From Amphiura filiformis (lineage: Eukaryota > Echinodermata > Ophiuroidea > Amphilepidida > Amphiuridae), in the NCBI RefSeq assembly GCF_039555335.1, contig NC_092646.1:21381258-21445257 (forward strand): a stretch of DNA of 64,000 nt, read 5' to 3'. The notes beneath the pieces are model-generated. The model was given only the letters and a program-made list of their open reading frames with translations, made no database searches and was not told the DNA's origin. Positions 5,085 through 61,776 of the stretch are shown in pieces; position 1 is the first letter of the stretch; every line of letters begins with the position of its first letter. The translations under genes and the position numbers were made by a program.

Positions 5085-5516
5085 CTATAAAACTTTTTTT
5101 TGTTGACATTTAACAGTTCTCAAAGCAAACTTTATATACGAAAAGCCGTCCATCGTATTAAAGTTTTGACTTTTCGTTTTGAAGATATACATTTTTACCA
5201 CAAACATTTTGGTAATATAGGTAATTTCAATTGTCAATAATTTGCCATAAAATTTGTATTGTATCATTGTATCGCGAATTTCAACAACAAAATAGATTAA
5301 ATATAATAAAATAAAATAAAATAAAGTAAAATAAAATAAAATAAAATAAAATAAAATAAAATAAAATAAAATAAAATAAAATAAAATAAAATAAAATAAA
5401 AATTATTTGATATCAGAAGGACATTTCTCGTATTGAGAATGCAATTTGGTGTGTCTGATGTTCTCTCAGGTTCCAGAAAAAAAATACTGTGCAAAAGTGG
5501 GTGACCGACCTCTTAA
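5085..5516 (-). mobile_element. Partial copy of the TTAA-flanked GGGACATGAGAGCACATC element
   Basis: Diverged words of the family are present ('tgacatttaacagttctcaa', 'attatttgatatcagaagga', 'gaatgcaatttggtgtgtct'), ending near 'ctcttaag'. An (ATAAA)n microsatellite has expanded inside it at about 5,300-5,400. Better copies are at 6.67, 18.97 and 59.2 kb. Confidence 0.65.
5303..5401. repeat. (ATAAA)n microsatellite
   Basis: About 19 near-perfect pentamer units. The minus-strand reading frame over it (Phe-Ile-Leu-Phe-Tyr repeats) is an artefact of the pentamer. From 5.52 to 6.66 kb I see no further feature. Confidence 0.95.
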
Positions 5517-6893
5517 GTTATTGATTTGAATTAGTTTGAATCTTTATCAATTCCAATATTGCGAAGTTACAGTTCCCTCATCATCCTACTCATCATCAGC
5601 ATGTATAATAGATTTCAGATATTGGTGTTGTGTGCAGCGCCAATATAATATTGAGCCAATCAGAGGACCAGAACACGCTGTCGCTCTACCACACCACGAC
5701 AAATGTCAACTATTAAAAAGATCACACTGCGTTTTTGTTGTTGAATTCAATTTACCACTTAACTTGTAAACCCAGCTACTGGTGTTACGCAGAAAAGGTA
5801 CTACTGGTATTACGCGTTAATGCGAAAATTGGAACTTAACCGATAAATTATTTTATTAAATGCAAGAGTTTTTTCTGTAAAAGTAGTCGTTTGGATTTTA
5901 AAGTTTTGTTTGGACAATAAAATGATACATTTCGGAATTGAAGATATATGACGGAGTTGTCGATTTATACCATTGTAACAACTTATATCTCACATTGGTG
6001 CCAGAGGAAGGTTTTGAAATTTGAGAGTGCGGAAGTAAATGAGCTTAGGAGAAACAGCGACTATGAGTGCAAGAATCGGACAGATATCAAGTAAGTAATT
6101 TACAAATTATGTTATATTATTCCTGTCAAACATTAATGAATTAATATTAATTTTATATGTATCAACCGTTTCATCGTTTCTTTTCTTACCTCGGTCGAGT
6201 GGCGATGTATTTGGCGTTGGCATGATGAAACAATCGGCATTAATGGATTTTGCAAGGCACAGTAAGACCACATAACTTTGGATGAAATATTTTTCAAAGT
6301 TTTTGTTTGTTTTGTTTGTTTGTTTTTGTCTGTTTCTGATTTCCTAATAACTTCAAAATCACTGGATTGTAAGCTAAAAACAGAAAAGAAATAGTTCATT
6401 ATTAAATAAGTTTATCATAGAATAATGACGAAGGAGTCGTCCCAAAATATGCTTCATCCTAGCAGGACGCAAGGCAATGCGAGATTAATATATGCGAAGA
6501 TCAGAAATAAATGATGCAAGCCCGAGAAATTATGATTTAAATGATGATTTTTGGGGCTCGATCAAGCTTGCATATTGAGCGACAAAACATTAGGACTCAG
6601 CGGGGATTGAACACCGGTCGTTGAATTACCGGATTGCTCGAACACTGTAGCTTTAATTCTGCTCTTAAGGGATGGGGTATGAACGTTTGGACGGTATTTA
6701 TTGTGGGACATTAGAGCACATCAGACATATCGAATTGCATTCTGAATACGAAGAATGTCCTTCTGATATCAAATAATTTTGATTTTGTGAAATTCGCAAT
6801 GTAATACATTTTATGGCAAATTATGATTAAAAATTGATATTTTTGATATTTAACAGTACTCGAAGTAAACTTTATAAATCTGATGATTTAAAC

Positions 6894-7249
6894 TTAAGGG
6901 GGTACTACACCCCTGGTCAATTTTGTGCCTATTTTTGCATTTTTCTCAAAAATTTTAGCGCATTGGTGACAAGTAAGATATGTATATTATAGGGGCAAGG
7001 ACTACAACTACATGCACTGAAAATTCAGCAACTCAAGGCAAGTAGATTTATTGATCAAATATTGGGTTTCCCTCATTTTTGACTGTAACTCCACAACTGT
7101 TGTCTGTGTTGAAATAAAAATTTCCAGTGCAGCAGTTGTAATCCTTGCCCCTATAATATACATATTTTACTTGTCACTAATGCGATATAATGTTTCAGAA
7201 AAATGCACAAATAGGCACAAAATTGGGCAGGGGTGTAGTACCCCCTTAA
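6894..7249. mobile_element. TTAA-flanked MITE with GGGGGTACTACACCCC ends, copy 1
   Basis: Perfect TTAA borders are followed by GGGGGTACTACACCCCTG and mirrored by GGGGTGTAGTACCCCC. The inner arms 'tataggggcaagga' and 'tccttgcccctata' are also inverted. It is inserted in the older element starting at 6,665; closing it up rejoins 'aaactta' to 'aagtgtatgtagg'. Relatives are at 27.2 and 36.05 kb. Confidence 0.9.
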
Positions 7250-8205
7250 AGTGTATGTAGGTGGGATGAAAAGCCGACGATCAATTGAAAATTGGGGAAA
7301 AAATATGAAAGGTCAAAATTTTCAATTGATCACCGGCTTTTCCTCCCAGCTCCATACACTTTAAGAATATATCATTATATTCATAAAATTTATTTCGAGG
7401 ACTGTTAGTTCTATATCAAAAATGTGAAAAATATCAATTTTTAATAATTTGTCATAAAATTTGTATTAAATCGTGGATTTCAAAAAATGAAAATGATTTG
7501 ATATCAGGAAGACATTCTTCGTATTCATAGTCGGTTGGCTTATGTAAAAAAAGCAAATTTTTGGGTAGATTCTTGGCAACCATGTTTAAACACATCTAAA
7601 AACTTCACTGATTTAGAAAAAGGTGGTTGCCAGTTTTTCCATTAACATTAAGAGCCTCCATTTTGAATTTCAAAATGGCCGCCAATTTTAGAAAAAATTA
7701 CAAATTAACCATATCTATTCATTCAAATGTCAAACAATATTTATTATATTCTATCTTAACTCACATAAAAGGGCCAACGAATCATTGAAAACAAAATAAG
7801 AGCACTAGAAATACTCTTAATTAGCAAAAATCCAAGATGGCGGCCATATTTCGGGCTTTTTTACGAAAAATGCCATAACTTTGAACCAATGGACACAGTA
7901 AGGTGTTTTTGATGACTAACCATATGTTTTGGCATATGAGGATTCCAATAATAACAACGTATTTATAATTGGAACAATGCCAATCCTTCAATTGTCACAT
8001 TTTTTAACCGATCTGTATGATATTTGGTGTTCAACATTATTTTAAATATATTCGTAATGTGTGCAAAGAGTTTGGGTACCAAATGCATTATAGTTGAGAC
8101 AACTGTTTATCTGAACATTGCTGGTAAATAAAACTAAATAACAATCGTTACAACAGAGCGATCGAAGCTCACCAGTTAACTCTTTAGGCACTCTACGATC
8201 TCTGA

Positions 8206-8451
8206 TTGGAGAAATTATTTGAGGATCAACCCGTTGTACGTAACACCCTGATAGCCATCATAAAGCAGCTGACTGAAGCATGCAGGGATAAGACAGGCGT
8301 TGCAAAAGCGCATCAGGCATTTATAATGGAGATAGAATCCTTAAATTGCAAGAAACAGCTACGAGAGTTAGACGCTAGTCCTCCTCCTGCTCTACTCCTC
8401 CTGCTCCTCCTCCTCCTGCTCCTCCTACTCCTCCTCCTCAGGTGTGAGTAA
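8206..8451 (+). other. Unrecognised short ORF inside the transposon, ending in a (CTC)n run
   Basis: An open frame of 81 codons without a certain start (it opens with TTG). The first ~60 residues look like ordinary mixed protein sequence. The last ~20 are a Leu run from a CTC/CTG microsatellite (8,388-8,440). It could be the amino-terminal debris of the decayed ORF downstream or unrelated. I do not recognise a family. Confidence 0.3.
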
Positions 8452-8457
8452 GACTGT

Positions 8458-9160
8458 TCAGCAAGTTGATTGCTGCCAGCAGGCCTTCAACACAGTCTTG
8501 ACAGCGTTAAAGAAACAGGATGCAGCTGGGTCGGTTAACAGGCTGTTCCAGTCACGGGTAGTGCGTGGAAAGTATGACTTTGGAGCCCGCTTTGGAGTTG
8601 TCAAACTGCATCGCGGATTTTGAAAGCAGGAACCATGGCCTTTGGTGTTTGAAGCTAGCGGGGTCATGTACTGGGACCACCTGATCCCCGGAACCTGATG
8701 TCGATGAGGTCAAACGGAATGCAATACATCATCTCCAGCCTGCTTTGGGGACGTCTACGAATGCAATACATCATCTCCAGCCTGCTTTGGTGACGTCTGA
8801 TAGCCAAGCTCAGGTGGGCAATTGGAGATCTTGAACCATGGCTGTCACACTGCTGCAGCGATATTAGATACCTGTGACAAACCTTGCACAATTTTTCTAT
8901 ACCTGCTCAATCTTTCTGATGTTGCGTTGTATATGAGGGTCTCAGGATGTAGCAGCATACTCAATTATTGGGCTGATGAAGGTTTTGTAGCTGGTCCCAT
9001 TGATCTTGTGTCTACAGTGGCCGATTTTTCTACTGAGGAAGGTTCTGGTGGAATTGACTTTCTTTGCCACAGTGTCAGCATGCATGTTGAAGTTCACCAG
9101 CTTCGAGTCGATGTGGACCCAAGACAGAGTCAACAAGCTCCAAGTCTCCAACACGTGGCC
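8458..9160 (-). pseudogene. Non-LTR retrotransposon reverse-transcriptase C-terminal remnant
   Basis: Minus-strand frames contain words characteristic of the C-terminal region of CR1/L2/jockey-like LINE reverse transcriptases: 'WVHIDSKLVNF', 'KKVNSTRTFLSRKIGHC', 'YKTFISPIIEYAA', 'QSRLEMMYCI', 'FDLIDI' and 'YFPRTTRDWNSLLTDP'. They lie in consecutive order but in different frames with stops between them. A roughly 31-bp segment coding the 'QSRLEMMYCI' word is duplicated in tandem (about 8,720-8,790). The RT catalytic Tyr-Xaa-Asp-Asp block is not present, so only the tail survives. It lies between the left inverted repeat and the plus-strand decayed ORF of the 4.35-kb element, probably as a separate insertion. 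Confidence 0.65.
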
Positions 9161-10850
9161 ATGGATGGTATATGAAGCCAGTATTGGTTTCCCGAGGGCT
9201 ATACGGGAGGGTAATTGGCGACTCTACTTGGTATCACTGGAGCATCTTTGCAAGTTCTTCTTTGCCTATTCCAGGCTAGATTATGCTCAAAACATTCCAG
9301 AATTCATCGCACGCATGGATGCCATAGAACTGACCCAGAACTATGGCAAAGCTTTTTAAACCAACTGCGAGTTTGCAGTTAATACCAGCAACCATATTCC
9401 ATTCACACGAACTGGTGTTGATCTGGTAATGGAACACCTCAACATATCAATGAAAGGTCATCTCGAGAGAGCGTCAATCTGGAAGATGTAATTAGGATGC
9501 ATATATCAACAAAGTTCTTATGGCACCGGATGGATTTTTTCATCCCACTACAGACAAGTGATAAAGCTTCTGGAAGATCTGGTGGCAAATGACACCTAAA
9601 GCTTCTGCACAGCCTACCGAGTTTGAAAAGAGATCGGGCACGATGCAGTCAAGAATTCGTTTTGTTTCTTTCTTTCTTTTATTTCTTCTTTAACCAGGGA
9701 CATTTAATCAGTTGAAAACAGAATTAATCATCTGTTTTTCCTTGAGGCCCAGGAATTTTAAGACTTGCAAAGAGCTTGCAACATCCTTCGTCACACTCAT
9801 TGACTCAAAGGCTTAAGGATATTGTCAAGTGCGAGTTATATTTGACTACTCAAAGAAAGCAGCACAGAAGAAACATATTATTATAGAACGGCGGAAAGGC
9901 AAGGTGAAGGGACAAAATGATGTTTCTCGGCAGCAGCAGCACAAAGGATTGGCTAACTCTCTACCTTTCCCATCGGCTCATCCACTACAGTAACGTCCAT
10001 GTTATGACTGCAACACGGCAGGAGGTCAAGGCGAATTATGACTGTCAAACAATGTCAGCACACACGAAAGAGGCGGACACTCTTACCATGCTGTAGAAGT
10101 TGTGAGCAAGGGGATTAATGTTCACATTATATTCACAAGACACAGATGTGCTACTTTTGTCTCTACGAACGTCGAAGAACACCACTACTTGGCAACAATT
10201 CTGCGCTAATCATAGGTACAAGTGAAAGACGACACAAAGTCTTTCTGCAGCCTATATATACAAGCTTGGCCCACAGAAATCAGCCGTTTTGATCAACTGG
10301 CATGCTCTTACAGGCTGTGATCCAAGGAAAGAGAAAGAAGGCATATGCTTTGCAACTTTCCTGAAGGCAAGCCCCACAATTTTGATAGCACAGCTGGTCT
10401 TGGCGAAGGGGATCCCATGAAGTTCTACATGGATGTGAAAAGTTTCTTTGCTCTCTTTTCTGCCCAAGTGAGTCCACATTGGGCAAGCAAAGATGATCAT
10501 GGTTTTGGTTCAAGCAACTCAAAGATGAACAAGGAGTTGATAAACTGCCACCGATTTGGATTGAACATATACGCCGTGCCTATGTCCAAGCTAATATCTA
10601 GCGCTATAAGATATGGTATTGAACCCAACTCATCTTGAACATCTGACCTTGGGGTGGTGGAGCCTAGACAGCAAGCTGCTGACGGTTCTTTCTCAGGTTG
10701 CTCCAAATCCGGTCCGCAGCTCATCAGGTGTAACTGTGAGAAATCAAAGTGCTCGAGAAGGTGCCCAATGCATAGGAAACAATGTGATCTGTACCAAATT
10801 TGCAAGTGTGGTGGGGAAGGTGACAGCTGTATGAACATTACACCACCAAT
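9160..10850 (+). pseudogene. Decayed ORF of the 'HALTGCD' family (possible FEN/PIN-like nuclease with Cys-rich tail)
   Basis: Successive plus-strand frames, broken by stops and shifts, follow a family often annotated as uncharacterised in marine invertebrates. In order: 'REGNWRLYLVSLEHLCKFFF' (9,205-9,265), 'KVLMAPDGFFHPTTDK' (about 9,510-9,560), 'SHRLIHYSNVHVMTATRQE' (9,970-10,026), 'HTKEADTLTML' (EAD codons 10,070-10,078), 'YSQDTDVLLLSL' (DTD 10,139-10,147), 'NWHALTGCD' (10,295-10,321), 'LKASPTIL', and a Cys-rich tail with CNC..KCSRRC..QC..ICKC (10,727-10,836). The ordered EAD, DTD and TGCD motifs resemble the acidic clusters of FEN/XPG nucleases; this is my inference, not an established assignment. 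Position within long inverted repeats suggests it was the element's own gene. It is clearly non-functional here. Confidence 0.6.
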
Positions 10851-12079
10851 GAATATATTGATTGAATATGTTATCTTCATATTACATGCAAAAAAATTTA
10901 AAAACTTACAAAACCGACACGGGTACCTGATTTAATTTCAACCAAGCATTTCACTGTTTCGTAGTGAATGTGGATGTGGATGATGGCATGCTGCCATTCA
11001 TACTACAGTTCATTTATAAAAAATATCAAACTCACTCGATAGTTTCGACCATAAGGTATATTCTAACCAAATTTAGACACCATCCGGTTATTTCCCTATA
11101 GTTACTATGCACTGAATATTGGTCATGATGTCCATATTTGGCATTTGGCAAATACACATATTATACACAAGTGCGCTAGAAATTCCCACACACGGGAAAC
11201 ATGTAGCACCTCCTTTGATGGTTACTGGGATATGGCAAGTGTGGCCTTCAGCACGTAAAATTGGGAGAGCTATTTGGCATAAGGGTTAGTCCCCGATACA
11301 CTGTGGATCAAGGAAAGTGGTTATTTGCATAGTGAATATACTATCAAATCACGGCGAGATTGCAACGTATTGTAATGCGTGAAGCAGATACAGGAAAAGT
11401 TCTGATGCGAGTAAAAAATGTTCCAATCATAAATACATTGATATTATTGGAATCCTCATATGCCAAAACATATGGTTAGCCATCAAAACCATCTTCATAT
11501 GTCCATTGCTTCAAAAGTTATGGCATTTTACGTAAAAAAGCCTAAAATATGGCGGCCATCTTGGATTTTGACTAATTTTGAGTATTTTAATGCTCTTATT
11601 TTGTTTCTAATGAATCGTTGACACCTTTATTATGAGTTTAGATGAAATATAATAATTATTGTATGAATTATTTGAATGAACAGTTATGGTTAATTGGAAT
11701 TTAAAAAAAAAATTGGCGGCCATTTTGAAATTCAAAATGGAGGTTCTAAATGTTAATGAAAAAACTGGCAACCATTTTTTCCTTAATCAGTGGAGTTTCT
11801 AGATGTGTTTAAACATGGTTGCCAAGAATCTACCCAAAAATTTGACAAATATGAAAAATATCACGTAAGCCAACCGACTATCAGAGTGCAATTCGATATG
11901 TCTGATATGCTCTCATGTCCCACAAAAAATAATGTCGAAACGCTCAAAACGCTCATTCAGATCCCTTAACCATTAGAAGAGTGACAATTTTGATGGAATA
12001 TCTTATTACCACAGAACACTTTTTGAGAAGTTGAAGCATGAAACTTTTGCTTCGAAAAGAAATCCTCTTTGTTTCGTAA

Positions 12080-12350: not shown

Positions 12351-13020
12351 GAAGCTCTGTCCTATATGAAGATCGCCTCAAAGAGCTTGCGCTTTTTAAG
12401 TCTTGAACACACATTTATACATTTAAAGACAACATTCTGTTTTTAAGTTCTTCCATGATTTTGAACTCGATCGAGGTCTCTAACAAAAGAGATTTCCGTT
12501 CATCATGTTCATCAAATTTATACAGGTTACGATCATCAGGTTACTCCTTCATGTAATTATACACGAAATTAGGGTTAGGGTTAGTTTAGGGTTAGGAATA
12601 GGGTTAGGGTTTGGGTTAGGGTTAGGGTTAGGGTTAGGGTTAGGGTTAGGGTTAGGGTTAGGGTTAGGATTAGGGTTAGGATTAGCTTACACGAAATAAT
12701 TACATGAAGGATCGACCGATCTTCAGACTGTCCTACCTTCATTTCAAATAAATACAGGTCCAACATTTGCAGCAAAACATTTTTAACCGCATTTGCAATA
12801 CATGAAACGACATCCTTTGATCATCATACAATCAGGGATATCGTTTCGCGAATTGCACATGTGGTTTAAAATGTTTGGTTTAAAATGTTGGTCCTGTATT
12901 GGAATGTTGACAGAGCTATCAAACGAGTTCACGTCTTTAAGTTTACCATGTTTGCGGCGGTATTCAAGACTTAAAAAGTACAAAGCTCTTTGAGGCGATC
13001 TTCATATGGGACAGAGCTTT
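12351..13020. mobile_element. Fold-back element enclosing an interstitial telomeric array
   Basis: The left arm 'gaagctctgtcctatatgaa', 'gatcgcctcaaagagcttg', 'tttttaagtcttgaa' (12,351-12,410) is mirrored at 12,963-13,020 ('ttcaagacttaaaaagt', 'caaagctctttgaggcgatc', 'ttcatatgggacagagctt'). A second inner pair, 'ccttcatgtaattat' (12,546) and 'ataattacatgaagg' (12,697), brackets the TTAGGG array, with 'tacacgaaat' repeated directly on both sides. The two arms flank about 550 bp of otherwise unrelated sequence. Confidence 0.75.
12568..12688 (+). repeat. Interstitial (TTAGGG)n array
   Basis: About 20 units of the metazoan telomere hexamer, with a few variants (TTTAGGG, ATAGGG, TTTGGG, ATTAGG), run G-rich on the plus strand. 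The long frames across it (Gly-Leu and Leu-Thr repeats) are artefacts. Confidence 0.95.
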
Positions 13021-18973: not shown

Positions 18974-19320
18974 TTTAAAGGGCTCTGGTATGAGTCGAGC
19001 GTTCGGGCAGTATTTTTTTTGTGGGACATGAGAGCACATCAGACATATCGAATTGCATTCTGAATACGAAGAATGTCCTCCTGAGTCCTGATATCAAATA
19101 TTTTAATTTTTTGAAATTCGCGATATAATACACATTTTATGGCAAATGATTAAACATTGATAATATCAATGATATCCGGGATTGATATTTAACAGTCCTC
19201 GAAGTATGGATGAAAACCGACGATCACTTGACAATTTTGACCTTTCGTATTGAAGATATGGATATATTTCCCCAAAACACCCAACAAATTAGGTCTTTTT
19301 GAGAAAAAATTAGATGCAAC
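18974..19320 (+). mobile_element. Half copy of the TTAA-flanked GGGACATGAGAGCACATC element
   Basis: It starts at TTAAAGGGCTCTGGTATGAG, continues through 'gtgggacatgagagcacatc', 'gcattctgaatacgaagaat' and 'tgaaaaccgacgatcacttg', and stops in 'aacaaattaggtctttttga'. The mirrored half is missing. Confidence 0.75.
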
Positions 19321-23014: not shown

Positions 23015-34080
<11,066 letters not shown>

Positions 34081-40700: not shown

Positions 40701-43700
40701 CTGTGCATGCATGATACCATCGGCTCATGAGGCCTTCCCCTCCATAACCACCAGACCAGCATCTTGAGTAGGAATCCAATACGATTTGACAGTTTTTGTT
40801 AGCCCGTCGGCAAACTGAATTAGAAAACAAAAGACTCTGATAAGTCAACTATAGTATTAATGTAAGGGCAGACAGACAGTGGTAAGCCTACGTTAATATT
40901 AATGTAAGGGAGTCCATGCAGTGGTAAGTCTACGCTAAAATTAATGTAAGGAAGCCCAGGTAGTGGTAAGTCTACCTTAGTATTAATGTAAGGGAGTCCA
41001 GGCAGTGGAAAGTCTACGTTAGTATTAATGTAAGGGAGTCCAGGCAGTGGTAAGGTAAGTCTACGTTAGTATTAATGTAAGGGAGTCCAGGCAGTGGTAA
41101 GTCTACGTTAGTATTAATGTAAGGGGGGCCAGGGCGTGGTAAGTCTACGTTAGTTTTAATGTAAGGAAGCCCAGGCAGTGGTAAGTTTACGTTAGTATTA
41201 ATGTAAGGGAGTCCAGGCAGTGGTAAGTCTACCTTAGTATTAATGTAAGGGAGTCCAGGCAGTGGTAGCGGTAAGTCTACGTTAGTATTAATGTAAGGGA
41301 GTCCAGTCAGTGGTAAGTCTGCGTTAGTATTAATGTAAGGGAGTCCAGGTAGTGGTAAGTCTACGTTAGTATTAATGTAAGGGAGTCCAGGCAGTGGTAA
41401 GTCTACGTTAGTATTAATGTAAGGTAGTCCATGTAGTGTTAAGTCTATGTTAGTATTAATGTAAGGGAGTCCAGTCAGTGGTAAGTCTACGATAATATTA
41501 ATGTAAGGAAGTCCAGGCAGTGGTAAGACTACGTTAGTATTAATGTAAGGGAGTCCATGTAGTGGTAAGTCTACGTTAGTATAAATGTAAGGAAGTCCAG
41601 AAGTCTGCGTTAGTATTAATGTAAGGGAGTCCAGGCAGTGTTAAGTCTACGTTAGTATTAATGTAAGGGAGTCCAGGCAGTGGTAAGTCTGCGTTAGTAT
41701 GAATGTAAGGGAGTCCAGGTAGTGGTAAGTCTACGGTAGTATTAATGTTTGTTTGTTTGTTTGTTTCAACTGTCGCTCCGTGTGGAGACACGCTTGGGTC
41801 CTGATGGGACCAGGCTCAAACAAAATGCTCAAGCCAGGCTAAAAAGCCTATATAAGCATGCTGGCCTGTATGGAAAGAGAAGATAGAAACAGATTTGGAG
41901 ACAAAGAACAAGAAAAAGAAGGCCACTCCCAACAATCAAGTTAACAATTTTAATGTCAGCCTTTGGGTCAAGAGAAAGGAAGTGCTTAAGGAAGTCCAGG
42001 AAGTGATAAGTCTACGTTAAAATTAATGCAAGGGAGTCCAGGCAGTGGTAAGTCTACGTTAGTATTAATGTAAGGGAGTCTACAGTTTTAATGTAAGGGA
42101 GTCCAGGTAGTGGTAAGTCTACGTTAGTATTAATGTAAGGGAGTCCAGGTAGTGGTAAGTCTACGTTAGTATTAATGTAAGGGAGCCCAGGCAGTGGTAA
42201 GTCTACGCTAAAATTAATGTAAGGAAGCCCAGGTAGTGGTAAGTCTACCTTAGTATTAATGTAAGGGAGTCCAGGCAGTGGAAAGTCTACGTTAGTATTA
42301 ATGTAAGGGAGTCCAGGCAGTGGTAAGTCTACGTTAGTATTAATGTAAGGGAGTCCAGGCAGTGGTAAGTCTACGTTAGTATTAATGTAAGGGAGTCCAG
42401 GTAGTGGTAAGTCTACGTTAGTTTTAATGTAAGGAAGCCCAGGCAGTGGTAAGTTTACGTTAGTATTAATGTAAGGGAGTCCAGGCAGTGGTAAGTCTAC
42501 CTTAGTATTAATGTAAGGGAGTCCAGGTAGCGGTAAGTCTACGTAAGTCTACGTTAGTATTAATGTAAGGGAGTCCAGGTAGTGGTAAGTCTACGTTAGT
42601 ATTAATGTAAGGGAGTCCAGGCAGTGGTAAGTCTACGTTAGTATTAATGTAAGGTAGTCCATGTAGTGTTAAGTCTATGTTAGTATTAATGTAAGGGAGT
42701 CCAGTCAGTGGCAAGTCTACGATAATATTAATGTAAGGAAGTCCAGGCAGTGGTAGCGGTAAGTCTACGTTAGTATTAATGTAAGGGAGTCCAGTCAGTG
42801 GTAAGTCTGCGTTAGTATTAATGTAAGGGAGTCCAGGTAGTGGTAAGTCTACGTTAGTATTAATGTAAGGGAGTCCAGGCAGTGGTAAGTCTACGTTAGT
42901 ATTAATGTAAGGTAGTCCATGTAGTGTTAAGTCTATGTTAGTATTAATGTAAGGGAGTCCAGTCAGTGGTAAGTCTACGATAATATTAATGTAAGGGAGT
43001 CCAGGCAGTGGTAAGACTACGTTAGTATTAATGTAAGGGAGTCCATGTAGTGGTAAGTCTACGTTAGTATAAATGTAAGGAAGTCCAGAAGTCTGCGTTA
43101 GTATTAATGTAAGGGAGTCCAGGCAGTGGTAAGTCTACGTTAGTATTAATGTAAGGGAGTCCAGGCAGTGGTACCGGTAAGTCTATGTTAGTATTAATGT
43201 AAGGGAGTCCAGGCAGTGGTAAGTCTACTTTAGTATTAATGTAAGGGAGTCCAGTCAGTGGTAAGTCTACGTTAATATTAATGTAAGGAAGTCCAGGCAG
43301 TGGTAAGACTACGTTAGTATTAATGTAAGGGAGTCCAGGCAGTGGTAAGTCTACGTTAGTATAAATGTAAGGGAGTCCAGGTAGTGGTAAGTCTACGTTA
43401 GTATTAATGTAAGGAAGTCCAGAAGTCTGCGTTAGTATTAATGTAAGGAAGTCCAGGCAGTGTTAAGTCTACGTTAGTATTAATGTAAGGGAGTCCAGGC
43501 AGTGGTAAGTCTGCGTTAGTATGAATGTAAGGGAGTCCAGGTAGTGGTAAGTCTACGGTAGTATTAATGTTTGTTTGTTTGTTTGTTTCAACTGTCGCTC
43601 CGTGTGGAGACACGCTTGGGTCCTGATGGGACCAGGCTCAAACAAAATGCTCAAGCCAGGCTAAAAAGCCTATATAAGCATGCTGGCCTGTATGGAAAGA

Positions 43701-46700
43701 GAAGATAGAAACAGATTTGGAGACAAAGAACAAGGAAAAGAAGGCCACTCCCAACAATCAAGTTAACAATTTTAATGTCAGCCTTTGGGTCAAGAGAAAG
43801 GAAGTGCTTAAGGAAGTCCAGGAAGTGATAAGTCTACGTTAAAATTAATGCAAGGGAGTCCAGGCAGTGGTAAGTCTACGTTAGTATTAATGTAAGGGAG
43901 TCCAGGCAGTGGTAAGTCTACGTTAGTATTAATGTAAGGGAGTCCAGGTAGTGGTAAGTCTACGTTAGTATTAATGTAAGGGAGTCCAGGTAGTGGTAAG
44001 TCTACGTTAGTATTAATGTAAGGAAGTCCAGGTAGTGGTAAGTCTACGTTAGTATTAATGTAAGAGAGTCCAGGCTGTGGTAAGTCTACGTTAGTATTAA
44101 TGTAAGAGAGTCCAGTTAGTGGTAAGTCTACGTTAGTATTAATGTAAGGGAGTCCAGGTAGTGGTAAGTCTACGTTAGTATTAATGTAAAGGAGTCCAGG
44201 TAGTGGTAAGTCTACGTTAGTATTAATGTAAAGGAGTCCAGGCTGTGGTAAGTCTACGTTAGTATTAATGTAAGAGAGTCCAGTTAGTGGTAAGTCTACG
44301 TTAGTATTAATGTAAGGGAGTCCAGGTAGTGGTAAGTCTACGTTAGTATTAATGTAAGGAAGTCCAGGTAGTGGTAAGTCTACGTTAGTATTAATGTAAG
44401 GGAGTACAGTCAGTGGTAAGTCTACGTTAGTATTAATGTAAGAGAGTCCAGTTAGTGGTAAGTCTACGTTAGTATTAATGTAAGGAAGTCCATGTAGTGG
44501 TAAGTCTATGTTAGTATTAATGTAAGGGAGTCCAGGCAGTGGTAAGTCTACGTTAGTATTAATGTAAGGGAGTCCAGGTAGTGGTAAGTCTACGTTAGTA
44601 TTAATGTAAGAGAGTCCAGTTAGTGGTAAGTCTACGTTAGTATTAATGTAAGAGAGTCCAGTACAGTCAGTGGTAAGTCTATGTTAGTATTAATGTAAGG
44701 GAGTCCAGGCAGTGGTAAGTCTACGTTAGTATTAATGTAAGGGAGACCAGGCCGGGAGTCCAGGCAGTGGTAAGTATTGCTGAGGCTTATAAAGTGTGCC
44801 GAGGCTTGTGGATCAACGTCTAAGCGTTGTGCCTGTGCGTAGAGCACTATAAATCACTGCGCTTTTTAAAAAAGTCTACGTTAGTATTAATATAAGGGAG
44901 TCCAGGCAGTGGTAAGTTTACGTTAGTATTAATATAAGGGCGTTCAGGCAGTGGTAAGTCTACGTTAGTATTAATATAAGGGAATCCAGGCAGTGGTAAG
45001 TCTACGTTAGTATTAATATAAGGGAATTCAGGCAGTGGTAAGTCTACGTTAGTATAAATGTAAGGAAGTCCAGAAGTCTACGTTAGTATTAACGTAAGGG
45101 AGCCCAAATTACTGGTAAGTATACGATAGTTTTTTACATAATGCGCGGTGTAGGCCCTAATAATAGTAGAAATATTTGACTGTAGTTGATTTACTTACCA
45201 GCGTTAACAACATCAATATTGTAGCCTTTTATCGTACCAGAAACGTTGTCACTATGGAAACAAAACAAAATTATTTGATATAATAAGAATAATATCGATT
45301 TCAATAAATAAAAATTTCACTTCCAGGATGAAACCGGTGTGCATCAAAGAGCCTCATACCCTAACCAATCCCCTCGGTACCTAAGAAAAGTGGAACACAG
45401 TTAGTCAGTTTGAGTAATAATTCAAGATCGTTGCGTTGGACAGAAAAAAGAAAATATAATAAGCATTTTACCTCATGTGGATGAAACCTAATATCACCTG
45501 TTAGGTGATTTGTTTGTATGAATTGAATATTATATTACACTTGTAATAACCTTTTGTTAATAAATGAGCAAATGAACTGCATAAAATCGCGGCATAAGAT
45601 ATAATACAATTTTAATATTTGGCCAATTTTGGGAAATAAGGGCTATAAATATTCAATTTCTGCAAATTTTCTTAGGATTACAGTCACAAAATTCAAAGAG
45701 TTGACACAAGTTTAAGCATTCAGAATTTTGAGTATGTTAATGATTGGCTATAAAATAAAACAGAAAATGTGTTTGTTAAAAATACGGACGCGTGAGACGT
45801 TAGTCAAAATTGTCACAGAATATAGAAATGCCTTTAAAATGCATGATTTTGGCCCTTGTTTCCAAGAATTGACCAAAATCGAAAGTTGACTTTAATTATC
45901 AGTTAGTTCTAACATATACGAATTAGGATTTAGCCAATTTTATTACATAAGATATTACAAGTAAACACCACATTTAATACAATATGGATTGTAATTGATA
46001 TATTGATTAGAAAAATAATTAATCAATTCAATCATCCGGTTTTTTACTATAAATAAATTTACTAAACAGCTATATTTTAATTAGCGACATATTCTAATTA
46101 TTAATAAACAATATTCCTCACAAGGTCGGTTCACATAAAGTTGAAGGACACTGCTTAAGAAAAATCTTTATCATAATTCAGAATTGAATTGTGTTTATTT
46201 GTCTAAATCTAAACTGAAGAAAAGCAGGAAAGAAGAATGAAAAAGGATTATGAGAAAACGAAGAAGAAGAAAAGAAGAAGAAGAAGAAGAAGAAAAAGAA
46301 AGAAGAAGAAGAAGAAGAAGAAGAAGAAATTGGAATGGGAATTTACAGTGGGTTTCTCCGACACAAATAAAATGTTTACTCCAGTAGTGTTTTATACTAT
46401 TTTTTTTTAAGTTTTCCGGTTTTTTTCTTCAAATGCGAGCATATAAGCCGTCAAAAACGAAATGCGCGTGCGCTACAGGAAACAAACTTGTTTTTTTTTG
46501 CCTAACTGTAGATATAGGATAACTATCTAGGAACTGTTTTTTATTTTGTTTTTAATTTTGACCAATTGTACCATAAATGGACGAAATATGGGTGAAAAAA
46601 CGCGTTTTTTGTGATTTTTACTTTAGTACCATATTGAGCACTGAGCAGTTTCAATATTTTCTCAAAGTTGTCAAAATCCGAAAAATAGGGATAAATTCAA

Positions 46701-49359
46701 TTTTCATCATACTTACATGTATTCCAAATTGCCATCATCCACGGCCATATGTATAATCCAAACCTCATCAGTATTACACCCATTGGTAGAATATGCTATA
46801 ATTATGTATTAATTAAAAACAAAAGAACTTATATTTAATAAATGATATTTATTGTTTTATACTTCATCACGATTTCGTTGATTGTGACTGTCGCCACAAA
46901 CTATTAGTCTGATGATCATGTCTGAGTGAGCTTCCATTTAGTTAAAACAATGAATGAAAAACATATTGATCAAGAACACACGGTTTGTTTTAATTAGAAA
47001 TTCACTATCACCAAAAAGGCGTTCTCCACTGTGTATCCAATAATGTATGAAAATAACAACAACAAAAATGCTTTGGACTTTATAGAATCTCCTGTTCGAT
47101 TCCTGTTTAGTATTATTTGTCTCTAAAATTCACCTTTTAGGGCCGCATTTTTACAGGATATATTAGGGCCCCCTAAAGTCGAAGGCGACGAAAAAAACCC
47201 TGTTCTGATGGACGAACGGATCTTTCAAGTAAGGTCGTTCGGTCGGGAGTTATCAGACAATAATCTACTTTTTGCCCCAAACAGTTAATTTTACATTTTA
47301 TAGCAATTCCCGTTCAACTCGATCCAATTTTGTTCGAAAAATGCTGATTTTACATGCTTACAGCAAATGATAATAATAAAAAAACTCAAAAGGAAAACCT
47401 GGGTCTGTCGGGCCGGTAGAACATGAAGGGTTTTTTTCGTCGCTTGATAATTATTATAGCTTCATTTTAGCGGGATAAAAATCTGAGGAAAATAAATAAC
47501 ATAAATAAAATTAATGATGGTTTACAACGTACCTCGTGTAACTTCATCAAGCATTGGATCACAATCATCCATATACATGAAAATATTGAGAACTAAACTC
47601 GCAATCGATGCAATCCCCACAAGTAGTAAGATGCCAAGACTAACGCATAGAACAGCTCCCGATCTACGGCTTAAAGATCCTTGCCTATTCACTTGCTTAT
47701 ATCCACCCTCCATTCCGCTGTTGAACTTCAGCTCTGTTTTACAATAAGTAGAAACAAACAAATAAGCACCCAAACAAACAAGTAAAGCAAGCAAGCAAAC
47801 AAACAAACAAAAGACAATGTTAGCAAAGCTATTCCATTGAAGTTGAAAAACAAATGGTAAACTGTTCTATTGCTCGAATTCATAAAATAATATTTATTAA
47901 TGTTTAAATAATTGTTTTTCAGTACCCTTACGAGCTATCTTCAGTAGTTAGCAAGTTGTGTATGCGCTATCTTCAGTAGATAGCAAGTTGTACTTACTAA
48001 GCTATTTTCAGTACCCCTATGAGCTATCTTCAGTAGATAGCAAGTTGTACTTATGAGCTATTTTCAGTACCCCTATGAGCTATCTTCAGTAGATAGCAAG
48101 GTGTACTTACTAAGCTATTTTCAGTACCCTTGTGAGCTATCTTCAGTAGATGATTTTTCTTTAGTAGCAAGCTGTAGATAGCGAATTGTAAATATAAGTA
48201 GATCTATCAGTAGATGAAGTTATTTATCTTAAGTACATAACATGTTATACATAGATAGCAAGTTGTACAGTATACATAAACCGGTGTGCATCAAATGTAT
48301 GAGTTATATTCAGTAGATTGTAAGTTGTACACACACGTTATCTTAGGTACATAGCAAGTTGCATAATGAGTTATCTTCAGGAAACAGAATGTTTTACATA
48401 ACAAAGATTAAACTAAGCTATGAGTTATCTTCAGTAGATATCATGTTGTATATTTTGTATGATCTATCTCAGTAGATAGGCAGTTGTACATCGTCAGCCA
48501 TTTCATATAATGACATATTTGGCATTTTCATAAAATTTGGCAGAGTAAATAAGTAGACAACACTATTTAAAATCACCTAATCCTGGCTGTAGATGTCACT
48601 GAATTAGTGCAATTATTTGTCTGAAAAGATATTTCAAACAATAATTGTCATTATTGCCAATTTGTTTCTTATTGTAAGTACACAATTTCCAAAAGTAACT
48701 TGCATTTAATATTTTAAACCCCTCGTCACCTTCCTATATGAAATTCAGATCAAAATATTATGTATTTATATTACGCTCGTAAATTGAACCGACAAAACGA
48801 GTGTGGAACGTTTAAAATTATTTAAAGCTATTTTTAAACGAATTTGGTTAAAATTGGTTCAAACCAGATATTTTGGTATATTTGTAATGTTTACAAATGT
48901 CCCATCTTACAAGAATCATATCAGTTCAGACAAAATCCTGCAACAGTAGAACTCCACTGTTAAGCGGTCAAGATATAGTAAATAGGTTTGCTTTCATTTT
49001 ACATCATTCGTTTGGCTTAAAATGACGAGAAAACCTTCTTGACAATAATTATTATAAAGGCATGCTCTGTTAGTGCTTACATTAAAAGAAAACTTCAACA
49101 ACTAAACTTGTGAAGGTAAAACGCAACAAATTACTCCATTAACAACCTTACATTTTGAAACGTAGATAAATCTATATCGGTTGATCATTTTTTAAACATT
49201 TTGAAATTGATACGATTTAGCTATTATATATAAGATATAACAATTGTTTGCCAATATATAATGGCTTTATGAACTGAGTAAAATTTAATGTTAGGAAAAA
49301 AAATTAGAAAGTATGAACTTACCTTCTCGTTCGTGTACATCTGTGAATGTATCCCCCAT
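37764..49359 (-). CDS. Single-pass membrane protein with bacterial-type solute-binding (SBP_bac_3-like) ectodomain, nine exons
   Basis: Exons, in transcript order: 49,359-49,323, 47,733-47,533, 46,795-46,717, 45,251-45,199, 40,814-40,701, 40,040-39,844, 39,445-39,368, 39,083-38,876 and 37,834-37,764. All borders are GT-AG, phases agree, and the total is 1,038 bp or 345 residues. Residues 1-37 are a short basic tail ('SRRS'), about 39-66 a transmembrane segment ('LGILLLVGIASIASLVLNIF'), and the rest an extracellular type-II periplasmic-binding fold: 'IKGYNIDVVNA', 'CRRANKNCQIVLDSYSRCW', 'LTGKKIGFWEGWF', 'MYQTSAALEMALGLGEIDAA', and a C-terminal 'WRALLASDEYQQIC'. The ectodomain is Cys-rich, which suggests disulfides. 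There is no glutamate-receptor pore or ABC partner. Ligand and role are unknown; amino-acid or small-solute binding is inferred from the fold only. Homologous predicted proteins occur in other marine invertebrates, as far as I recall. Confidence 0.85.
37956..38185. mobile_element. Fold-back MITE with AGTTTTGGGACACTTTG ends
   Basis: 'cagttttgggacactttgcc', 'ctctgacctatcgggaaaat' is mirrored by 'aatttccccgatatgtcaga', 'ggtcaaagtgtcccaaaact'. It lies in the last intron of the minus-strand solute-binding gene. Confidence 0.85.
40221..40509. mobile_element. hAT-like MITE with CAGTGG termini in a (CTC)n run
   Basis: Terminal repeats CAGTGGTGGCTCTAGG and the mirrored ACGCCGCCACTG are hAT-like. The 8-mers outside the ends, TCTCCTCC and CCTCCTCC, fit an 8-bp target duplication, but the target is itself a CTC microsatellite. 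The interior has two long G runs (40,274 and 40,457). Confidence 0.75.
40862..45110. repeat. 42-bp minisatellite filling intron 4 of the solute-binding gene
   Basis: The unit is GTAAGTCTACGTTAGTATTA + ATGTAAGGGAGTCCAGGCAG + TG, present in roughly 85-100 copies, mostly 42 bp. Two ~250-bp non-repeat inserts ('caactgtcgctccgtgtgga' to 'ggaagtgcttaaggaagtcc') at ~41,750-42,000 and ~43,570-43,820 show a higher-order duplication with a period of 1,822 bp. The array begins about 90 bp inside the donor at 45,198 and ends about 50 bp before the acceptor at 40,815. The 14-residue minus-strand repeat 'INTNVDLPLPGLPY' is a by-product of 42 being divisible by three. Confidence 0.95.
45615..45770. repeat. 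Diverged copy of the non-repeated spacer of the TLX-intron satellite
   Basis: 'attcaaagagttgacacaag' and 'tttaagcattcagaattttg' match 'attcaaagacttgccaccaa' and 'tctaagcattcaaaatttgg' at 30,003 and 31,625. The spacer is therefore part of a dispersed element rather than unique intron sequence. Confidence 0.65.
46260..46330. repeat. (GAA)n microsatellite
   Basis: About 20 GAA units with AAAG interruptions, inside intron 3 of the minus-strand gene. Confidence 0.92.
47925..48490. repeat. Degenerate hairpin-satellite array in intron 1 of the solute-binding gene
   Basis: Repeats of 'gagctatcttcagtagatag' + 'caagttgtacttac' + 'aagctattttcagtacccct' occur with a period near 60 bp, becoming diverged to the right. 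They carry the same hairpin as in the TLX intron but different spacers. Confidence 0.85.
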
Positions 49360-57633: not shown

Positions 57634-58824
57634 CTACGGCCTACTAGCACTGGCAGTTGGAATTGATGCAACTGGCCGGGTTTTCTTCAGCTTCACAAAA
57701 CATCCACAAAAGGCTTCCTTAAAAGCGTCCCGATAAAACGAACTGATCAGGTTGTATACAAACGGATTGAGAGAGGAATTCAGGTATACAACATGCATCG
57801 TCCAAAGACTAACATAATTCCGTAGGTTTCCTCTGATTTATAGATCCGTTTACCGAAGATCCCCGATATAATATTGTTCAGAGTATTTGTTCGGATCCAT
57901 ACTTGACAAATGAAGAATAAGGTACCATTGATAACCAACATACGAGCTACTTGATTGCGTACTCGAGCGGCTTCAACCTGCAAATACTTTTGTAGGTCTA
58001 CTTCATCTCCCTCTCCGTCTTTTTTCGTCAACATTTCGCGATGGCCAAGACTGTACAGGATTCTAGCGAACATATACCCATTCCAAATCAGTGCAACAAA
58101 GAATGGGATAGTCTCTGTCAAGTTACTTATTATATTCACTTTCTCGCTGATGGTGACACAGAATTCATTTTTTTGAGGCCATCCGATGAAATCGGGAACT
58201 TGAGGCCAGATTGTGCAATACCGAATGAGTTTACTGTATTTGAGCGTGCGATCCGGCGCTTAAAATGCACGCAATGATCCATGTAATGCCTATAAGTTTC
58301 TTCGTGCGACCTTTGCTCGCAATTGCACGATGTTGCAACGGGTAACAAATACCATAGTACCGTTCAAGAGTCACTAAGCTCACAAGTCCAAGAGAAGCGT
58401 AGTACATTACATTTGCTATTCCAAAAGATAGGGAACAACCGATGAAAGTGCCATACGGTACGTCATGCCGAACTGGGGAATCGTAAAAGGCGTAAAGATA
58501 CGTACTTATTGATGTTACAATAAAACCAACATCAGCAAAAGCTAAGTTTGCCAAGTAATAGTTAGTAATGGTATGAAGTCGTGGTATTTTTGCCACTGCG
58601 TATAAGAAGGCACCGTTCCCAAGAGTGCCGATGATAAGAGCTATGGGCAAGCCGATGGTAAAGATTCGAACCTCAGCGGTGGAGTACATCCAAGTGTATG
58701 CATACCAAACCAAATTGGTCAGGTTGGAGTGGAACTGGGGATCATCGCATCCTTCTGGAAATGTTGTTAAGTATTCCATATTTGTGCAAGTTCTGAGAGA
58801 AAAAGATTCACGTTTTACTGACAT
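57634..58824 (-). CDS. Intronless rhodopsin-class GPCR, peptide-receptor type, with two frame breaks
   Basis: Seven-transmembrane receptor. It starts at ATG 58,824 ('MSVKRESFSL'), with an N-terminal N-glycosylation site (NLTN). TM1 carries the conserved 'GN' ('IIGTLGNGAFLYAV'), TM2 'NYYLANLAFADV' the LxxxD motif, and TM3 ends 'LERYYGICYPL' (DRY-like ERY). TM4 is 'ITWIIACILS', and loop 2 has Cys residues ('RYCTIWPQVPDFIGWPQ'). TM7 carries 'NSSLNPFVY' (NPxxY), followed by a 'FCGCF' palmitoylation-type site and stop at 57,634-57,636. The frame shifts twice: one extra base near 58,252 (after TM4) and one missing base between about 57,812 and 57,840 (before TM7). All three pieces are otherwise well preserved, so this is either a young pseudogene or carries sequencing errors. 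Neuropeptide or TRH/neuromedin-like ligands are plausible but not determined. Confidence 0.8.
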
Positions 58825-59211
58825 AAAACCCTGTCGTTAAATAGTACGACTGACCTTTGATGATAAAAAGAACTATTATTAATTACTCCAATTCATTTTA
58901 CGGTAGAAATTATACTCCAGTCGCTAATGACTAGCGACTTGTAGTTAACAAATAAACTGGACTGTTCTTGCTAGGCAATGAAAAAACGATCCGCCTGATT
59001 GGTCAGAAGTCAAACGCTCATACATATCTATCATCTGACGTTTAATCCAAACGTATTAATTATGGTGGATCATCCGCGCTTGTTTTTATAATTAATTATT
59101 TATATTTTCATGGCTACTTGGAGTCAGAAATCACGTTAAATATTAAGCATAAAATAAATTATGTATGTATTATGGATATTTTTCTGCCATTTTTTTATTA
59201 GCAGTACATGA

Positions 59212-59683
59212 TTAAGGGAACTGGAATGAGCGTTTCGACAGCATTTTTTGTGGGACATGAGATCACATCAGACCTATCGAATTGCATTCTGAATACGAAG
59301 AATGTCTTTCTCATATCAAATAATTTTCAATTTATGAAATTCACGATATAATACAAATTTTATGACAAATTATTAAAATTTGATATTTTTCACATTTTGG
59401 AGATATAACAGTCCTCGAAGTAAATTTAATGATATAGTCTTAAAGTGTATGTAGCTGGGAGGAAAAGCCGACGATCAATTGAAAATTTTGACCTTTCATA
59501 TTGAAGATATGGATTTTTTCCCAAAAAGACCTAATTTTTGTTGGTGTTTTGGGAAAAAAATCCATATCTTCAATACGAAAAATCAAAATTTTCAATTGAT
59601 CGTCGGCTTTTCATCCCACCTACATGATGTGCTCTAATGTCACACAATAAATACTGTCCAAACGTTCATACCCCATCCCTTAA
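59212..59683. mobile_element. TTAA-flanked GGGACATGAGAGCACATC element, near-complete copy
   Basis: TTAAGGGAACTGGAATGAGC at the left and CATACCCCATCCCTTAA at the right are partly mirrored. The central hairpin ('gacgatcaattgaaaatttt' with 'tcttcaatacgaaaaatcaa', 'cgtcggcttttcatcccacc') is near-perfect. It lies about 390 bp upstream of the GPCR. Confidence 0.85.
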
Positions 59684-59955: not shown

Positions 59956-60706
59956 CAGAGACATCATTATAGTATGTTCTTCAAATAGTCTGAATATTTT
60001 TCTAATCGTTCTTCTCCTTTAAACATGACATAAGCTTATATCCTTTAAATACTTATCAGAGCACAGATATTGGAACACTTAAGTCAGAAAAGAATTGACA
60101 GTCATGAAAGGAGTGTCAAATTATAATGACTTATCTGGACTTATCATTATCTGGTGTAGGCTATTTTGTCAGCTGTTCTGAAGATAACACTTTTGGGAAA
60201 ACTTACCAAATTTATTTGAAACGATCTGGACTAAAGATAAAAAAAAGTCGACGGTGTCATTTATTTTGTTAATCTGCCAATGTTTATGTAAATAATTGAA
60301 CCAATTGGAAAGTATAGTAAGTTCCGAAGTCCAATAGCCAAAATAGGAACTTCAGCATAAGCGAAACTCGAAACCGGAACTGAAAGATAAACGTGAAGGG
60401 TGCATATAGTCCTCGTACTCTTATGGTAAGTTACTGTTAGGGGTTATGTTGTAAATAATAGAGAGATTGCGATTTCCAATCTATTCAAAACCACTCTCCT
60501 GTGACTTCCAAAATTAAAGATTTCCAAGGAAGATTTCCCATAATCTGCCACAGTTTTGATTTTTAAGCGAAAAAGGTGGGTTTTTTTAAAAAAGAATTCC
60601 GCTATCACATGTCTGTGCTGATATAACTGTATGTCAACATTTTTAGCTTTTTGTATCTTCTACAGATATAAATGAATCGACCAGTTCTTAGATATCATCG
60701 CTAACA

Positions 60707-61776
60707 ATGAACACGACATCTGCCAAAATTCTGTCACTATGCATTCTCCTGTTGGACACCTGCATATGTGGTATGCTACCATTGTGTCTTGTCAACTGTC
60801 TAAGACGAGCTGGTACAAACACAATCACACGCATTCTAGAACTTGCCAATCTCTTTGCTGGCGGAGTATTCCTCGCTACACTTCTTCTCCATCTCATGCC
60901 TGGAGCAAGTGAAGCGTTACATGGAGCTCTTGAAGACAACGGACTTCATATAAACTACCCACTTTCGCAACTTCTTGTTGCTACAGGATTCTTTCTCATA
61001 GGACAGAACATATTGCTTTTTGTTTTTATCACACCGTACCTGACACTGGAGACCAAACTTTGCAACCAGTTTATGATCATTCCATCAACGCCACCTACGA
61101 AGTACATGATGACAACATAGATGACATCTCGCGCATCTTGCCAGATGAAAGGACGCCGTCCCTCACCCAAAATTCAATGGTGGACACATTGGGACAATTC
61201 TCTGTTTCTTATGAGAACTCTTGCAGCGACAACGCGCCTCTGCAAACCCATCAGACACATGATCACGTTGCCAGTGAACTTGTATTGACTCGGAAGACGT
61301 TGACTATAAGATCCTTGCTGTTCTTCCTGGCCTTATCTTTACATTCGCTATTTGAAGGAGTCGCTATTGGTTTGCAGAAATCAGCCACAGACGTGTTGAA
61401 GACTCTCCTTGCAGTTGCTATTCACAAAGGAGTCATTGCGTTTAGTTTCACTCTAAGCATGACACAACAGGCTATAATCTCGTGTATTATATTGTTTTAT
61501 GTCATTGTCTTAGCCGTGATATCGCCTGCTGGAATAGCCATTGGTATTGCAGTCAGCAACAGCGATGCTGATATAGCTGCTGATTTGGCAAACGGAGTGC
61601 TACAGAGCATTGCAGCTGGTACATTCCTGTTTGTAGTGTTTTTTGACATTTTACCTCGAGAATTACACAGTAATAAAAAACGTGAAGGAGCGTTAAATCT
61701 ACTTTTTACTTTGCTTGGATTTGGTTTAATGGCAGCACTACAAACTATCGGTTCGCATGACCACAGTGAGATATGA
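60707..61776 (+). CDS. ZIP-family zinc transporter (SLC39A1/2/3-like), with one frame break
   Basis: Plasma-membrane zinc (divalent metal) importer of ZIP subfamily II, inferred from motifs. It starts at ATG 60,707. TM1 is 'LLLDTCICGMLPLCLV', TM2 'NLFAGGVFLATLLLHLMPGA' and TM3 'LLVATGFFLI'. A variable loop with a His cluster ('QTHQTHDH') follows. TM4 'LALSLHSLFEGVAIGL' carries the HSxxEG metal site, TM5 'AVAIHKGVIAFSF' carries HK, TM6 is 'ISPAGIAIGIAV', then TM7 and TM8 to a TGA at 61,776. One base is missing near 61,002; reading on in the next frame gives the expected 'EHIAFCFYHTVPDTGDQTLQ'. The coding region is single-exon. The mutation may be a sequencing error or may mark a recent retro-pseudogene, since everything else is intact. 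Confidence 0.85.

Follow-up and report, generated by a model that had tools for sequence, protein, structure and literature searches.

A segment of Amphiura filiformis DNA with long inverted repeats at its ends and the remains of one gene inside raises two questions: what kind of mobile element it was, and what the gene did for it. The whole stretch in which the segment lies, 64,000 nucleotides long and called the window below, was used for the analysis, and all positions are counted from its first letter. The segment seems to be a dead, internally damaged cut-and-paste DNA transposon of the AcademX kind. We give this reading a probability of about 0.65; the filing goes by the length of the target duplication and the layout of a nuclease-like gene, not by a sequence match.

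Element ends and target site

The element spans 7528-11880 (4353 bp), and its outermost letters are TAGTCGG on the left and CCGACTA on the right. Its terminal inverted repeats start TAGTCGGTTGGCTTA, with the first 15 bases the same at both ends. Aligned with each other, the two repeats are identical in 391 of 448 ungapped columns (87.3%; K2P 0.14), and the alignment score is 629, whereas shuffling one arm 200 times gave at most 13. The inner edge of the repeats is abrupt, as the next 200 bp inward cannot be aligned (score -32). Further copies of the ends were sought within the window at E up to 1e-3, and the arms matched only themselves and each other.

Several short motifs lie within the inverted repeats and are listed in the table. 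All four TGGCSGCCA sites of the window fall within the two repeats. We infer only that these sites and the palindromic motifs beside them are candidate binding sites for protein.

The trinucleotide TCA adjoins the element on both sides, at 7525-7527 on the left and 11881-11883 on the right. An empty-site query was built from 500 bp of left flank and 500 bp of right flank with one TCA between them, and was searched against the window. At E up to 1e-3 this gave 23 rows: the two flanks themselves, 17 matches that stop short of the junction, and four that cross it unbroken. Since those four empty copies run through the junction, three with a single TCA at the target and one (5393-5482) with TGA, the target-site duplication is 3 bp, TCA. 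Taken without the empty copies, the ends could equally be read as GTCGG...CCGAC with a duplication of TA, as in Tc1/mariner elements; the TA which this requires is present in none of the four empty copies.

The element interrupts a host repeat that forms one arm of a fold-back. The two arms of this fold-back are 80% alike, and TTAA is found close to both of its outer ends (6665-6668 and 11966-11969). The original prediction described a large element with inverted ends of about 450 bp, a TCA-like duplication of 3 bp, and an older repeat that becomes continuous once the element is removed. All of this agrees with the lengths, identity and edges of the inverted repeats and with the empty copies in the window, which make the case for the duplication stronger than it was in that prediction.

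Table 1. Features of the element and empty copies of its host repeat, in window positions
Feature	Position	Strand	Remark
Left terminal inverted repeat	7528-7976	+	449 bp
Inverted pair TGGCAACCA / TGGTTGCCA	7574-7632		inside left inverted repeat
Palindrome CCATTTTGAATTTCAAAATGG	7658-7678		left repeat; counterpart 11720-11740
TGGCSGCCA motif	7676-7684		further sites start 7838, 11550, 11714
TCC-type simple repeat, possible tail of LINE-like remnant	8379-8439		
LINE-like reverse transcriptase C-terminal remnant	8450-9190	-	edges approximate; translations, by eye
42-bp tandem pair	8717-8798		in or beside LINE-like stretch
N-terminal readable part of gene, REGNW...VMEHLN	9189-9488	+	sub-threshold DUF6589 match
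Nuclease-like core, EAD ... SQDTDVLLL ... HALTGCD	10070-10321	+	stops and frame changes inside
Gene stretch 3' of nuclease-like core	10402-10705	+	frame changes
Cys8 cluster, C-terminal end of gene	10729-10830	+	pattern match
Right terminal inverted repeat	11419-11880	-	462 bp
Empty host-repeat copy	5393-5482	+	82%, E 2e-20, TTGAGA at target
Empty host-repeat copy, other arm of same fold-back	6680-6897	-	80%, E 8e-57, TTCAGA at target
Empty host-repeat copy	18978-19206	-	79%, E 3e-49, TTCAGA at target
Empty host-repeat copy (best)	59227-59502	-	88%, E 1e-104, TTCAGA at target

The broken gene and its surroundings

A three-frame translation of the interior reveals one plus-strand gene in pieces, with readable stretches in all three plus frames and stops between them. 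The remnant is about 1.7 kb long (9189-10845) and takes up much of the interior, and the peptide HALTGCD is encoded at 10301-10321 on the plus strand. The decayed HALTGCD gene that had been predicted inside the element is therefore present. Its family is usually reported only as an uncharacterised invertebrate protein.

The N-terminal readable part includes ...REGNWRLYLVSLEHLCKFFFAYSRLDYAQNIPEF...IPFTRTGVDLVMEHLN... and, when its two pieces were joined, gave a weak match to the Pfam family DUF6589 (PF20231). This match covers profile positions 280-367 of 410 with an E of 0.0025, but its 17 bits are below the cut-off of 27. It drops to E 0.024 with a longer read-through, and DUF6589 is absent from the Pfam search of the pieces taken singly. 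No transposase family was matched when the gene pieces and read-throughs were searched against Pfam, and no helicase family was among the matches of the gene pieces. Matches to Integrin_A_Ig_3 (E 0.037-0.11) were under the cut-off and were taken as chance. Rfam gave zero matches in the window at gathering scores.

The region that ends in HALTGCD is similar to flap/XPG nucleases in the layout of their acidic core, and may once have had the fold of such a nuclease. In one frame of the core, EAD is followed by 23 residues, DTD, 58 residues and the D of HALTGCD, with two stops ahead of DTD and one behind. The flap/XPG nucleases (5'-3' exonuclease family) have in common with it the order of the acidic residues: E-A-D, D-x-D, G-(x)-D. 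In the 5' nuclease of Taq polymerase the corresponding spacings, counted in a printed alignment, are 25 and 44 residues; they are of the same order as those in the element, though the second is not close to the 58 found here. The acidic pattern and the pattern for the Cys8 cluster each have one match in the six frames of the window and none in 60 simulated windows with the dinucleotide make-up of the real one, which is a guide only, because the two patterns were composed with the sequence already known.

A read-through of the nuclease part was searched against three libraries. It matched no Pfam family, XPG_I types included, at E up to 10, with filters that drop most matches above about 0.1, and at the same E limit it had zero matches in NCBIfam. 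In the PDB, also at E up to 10, the sole row was Protein fuzzy homolog (E 1.6), taken as chance. Of 18 candidate flap nuclease loci, 13 carry the motif in a long frame, and judged by eye none of these is similar to a flap nuclease.

Relatives of the gene were sought in collections of microbes and viruses, where a lack of them is expected, as the element is an animal transposon. Two scans of viral contigs gave 14 and 11 pattern-matching stretches, none of them confirmed by tblastn, and exact-match scans of viral contigs gave 0. One scan of genome contigs found 0 and another found 14 stretches, which are unconfirmed. The only plasmid row was from Aliivibrio (DNA topoisomerase, E 0.4) and was taken as chance; further plasmid scans found none, and neither did a search of phages with the nuclease part as query. 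PF20231 and PF00867 were each found in 0 of 6 virus records. In 14 control genomes PF00867 was found in four and PF20231 in none, so the result from the virus records says nothing on DUF6589. In the literature searched, no paper was found for the string HALTGCD, none for DUF6589, and one for AcademX.

To the left of the gene is LINE-like DNA, about 0.8 kb including the simple repeat (~8379-9190). Its minus-strand part, up to ~9190, could be what is left of a LINE reverse transcriptase at its C terminus. The LINE remnant of the original prediction is thus plausible by eye from minus-strand translations of this stretch, but a Pfam search of its pieces gave zero matches. The element is probably truncated internally too, since nothing left of the LINE-like stretch can be recognised as the N-terminal side of the HALTGCD gene.

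Possible mechanism and other readings

As an AcademX-like transposon, the element would have been cut out at TAGTCGG...CCGACTA by a DDD/E transposase and inserted where the two target strands had been cut 3 bp apart; repair of the gaps would then have left TCA on either side. The HALTGCD gene would be the element's own and may have had a role in moving it. The middle part of its product would be a flap/XPG-type nuclease core, working alongside the transposase at excision or in gap processing, and the C-terminal cysteine cluster probably binds DNA. The gene had been proposed to encode a replication or integration protein. Its flap/XPG-like acidic core suggests instead that a part in transposition can be kept, as that of a nuclease which accompanies the transposase.

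The same proposal placed the gene in an undescribed group of DNA transposons. In that case the HALTGCD protein would be the transposition enzyme of a superfamily of its own, unrelated to Academ, with 3-bp duplications and ends in TAGTCGG. The nuclease part, which has no match in Pfam, PDB or NCBIfam, would fit this, as would the lack of a Pfam transposase match and of the HALTGCD string in the literature searched. However, both traits that can be compared, a duplication of 3-4 bp and an encoded nuclease, are already combined in AcademX in print. On this argument from two traits the claim of an undescribed group is not upheld, and we consider a separate superfamily unlikely. A more specific form of the idea is that the HALTGCD protein, a single chain with a DUF6589-like part, a flap-nuclease core and a Cys8 cluster, serves a separate animal superfamily with 3-bp duplications as its only transposition enzyme and cuts with its nuclease instead of a DDD/E core; this we regard as a long shot.

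The element might also be non-autonomous, belonging to some other superfamily with 3-bp duplications and having captured a fragment of the HALTGCD gene. Harbinger, EnSpm/CACTA and Zator all make 3-bp duplications, so the duplication by itself is not decisive, and the unrecognisable N-terminal side of the gene is what a captured fragment could look like. But the remnant fills a large share of the interior for a captured piece, and the TAGTCGG ends are not of the CACTA type; this origin seems quite improbable. Nested elements are very improbable: here the inverted ends would be those of one element, and a different element would have brought in the gene afterwards, in the way that the LINE-like piece may have entered. 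The presence of that piece, identified by eye, and of simple repeats in the interior speaks for this, but no second pair of inverted ends was found inside the element (seed 9, minimum 20 bp, ungapped).

A protein family known only as an uncharacterised invertebrate protein is now tied to a mobile element with proven ends, so that gene models of the HALTGCD type come under suspicion as transposon genes. Were the reading as a separate superfamily true, the protein would be a new kind of transposition enzyme.

Comparison with Academ and Kolobok

The X in AcademX stands for XPG. Kolobok elements duplicate TTAA, and this duplication is absent from the present element. Several Kolobok lineages encode a nuclease, of other types, according to excerpts of PMC9587614, and for this reason the presence of a nuclease gene does not by itself mark an element as Academ.

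Within Academ, the excerpted text of PMC10045372 describes an AcademX lineage with duplications of 3 or 4 bp and an encoded nuclease, and an AcademH lineage of the same superfamily with duplications of 9 or 10 bp and an encoded helicase; its author relates the difference in duplication to the encoding of a nuclease or a helicase. Superfamily names and counts, and a RecQ helicase in Academ, are given in excerpts of other papers (PMC3627910, PMC5753468, PMC9783078, PMC9143410, PMC8290104, PMC10799480). The present element differs from AcademH in having a duplication of 3 bp, not 9 or 10, and no helicase family among its Pfam results. A link between DUF6589 and Academ would be a guess.

Curated Academ elements of bivalves have a mean length of 5565 bp in the excerpts of PMC10294476, and the 4353 bp found here, LINE-like DNA included, are compatible with that. 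The comparison with AcademX is by published description only, and where Academ would have a DDD/E transposase, the gene here gave a sub-threshold DUF6589 match and no Pfam transposase family. The likeness lies in the inverted ends, the nuclease-like acidic layout of the gene and the TCA on both sides, which is within the 3 or 4 bp of AcademX. Because AcademX agrees with this duplication and with a nuclease-like gene, and AcademH with neither, the element is probably a decayed member of the AcademX lineage.

Host fold-back and the neighbouring repeat

The older repeat that hosts the element, a decayed and probably AcademX-type DNA transposon, is a fold-back in its own right. Its two arms, the right one split by the insertion, are 80% alike, and its centre holds two more palindromes. 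TTAA lies close to each outer end of the fold-back and at the edges of both central palindromes. Just to the right of the element is an interstitial, telomere-like stretch of about 20 TTAGGG-type copies.

Positions in the window of the features described here
Feature	Position	Strand
Host fold-back	6665-7527 + 11884-11969	
Fold-back arms	6680-6897; 7361-7527 + 11884-11946	
Central palindromes	6894-7249; 7245-7365	
AAGATGGCSGCC copies	7834-7845; 11551-11562	
Pyrimidine-rich run and the following AACCAGGGAC...CCCAGGAA	9661-9765	
TTAGGG-type repeat	12569-12685	
42-bp array	40841-45073	
107-bp and 49-bp arrays	28782-32002	
Arrays with TATCTTCAGTAGATAGC	47933-48173	
Arrays with TATCTTCAGTAGATAGC, one base different	41-258	
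Nuclear receptor DNA-binding domain	23831-24406	
AAT repeat	24230-24472	
Rhodopsin-type receptor fragment	58231-58833	minus
ZIP zinc transporter	60692-61773	plus

Tandem arrays and coding matches

The very long 42-bp array (unit TAAGTCTACGTTAGTATTAATGTAAGGGAGTCCAGGCAGTGG) has one minus-strand frame without stops for up to 291 codons. The 107-bp and 49-bp units have TATCTTCAGTAGATAGC in common, and it recurs, once with a changed base, in two other places. Among protein matches, the frame of the nuclear receptor domain (Pfam zf-C4, E 5e-28) continues into a long AAT repeat, the rhodopsin-type receptor fragment matches 7tm_1 (E 3e-21), and the zinc transporter is matched in two frames that overlap, at E 4e-12 and E 2e-38. 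Taken jointly, these three genes indicate DNA of animal origin.

Motifs within the element

Inside the element, a pyrimidine-rich run is followed by AACCAGGGAC...CCCAGGAA; judged by eye only, this stretch may be an inserted SINE-like sequence in minus orientation. Each of the element's terminal inverted repeats contains AAGATGGCSGCC, which is similar to the YY1 promoter motif and may belong to a promoter.
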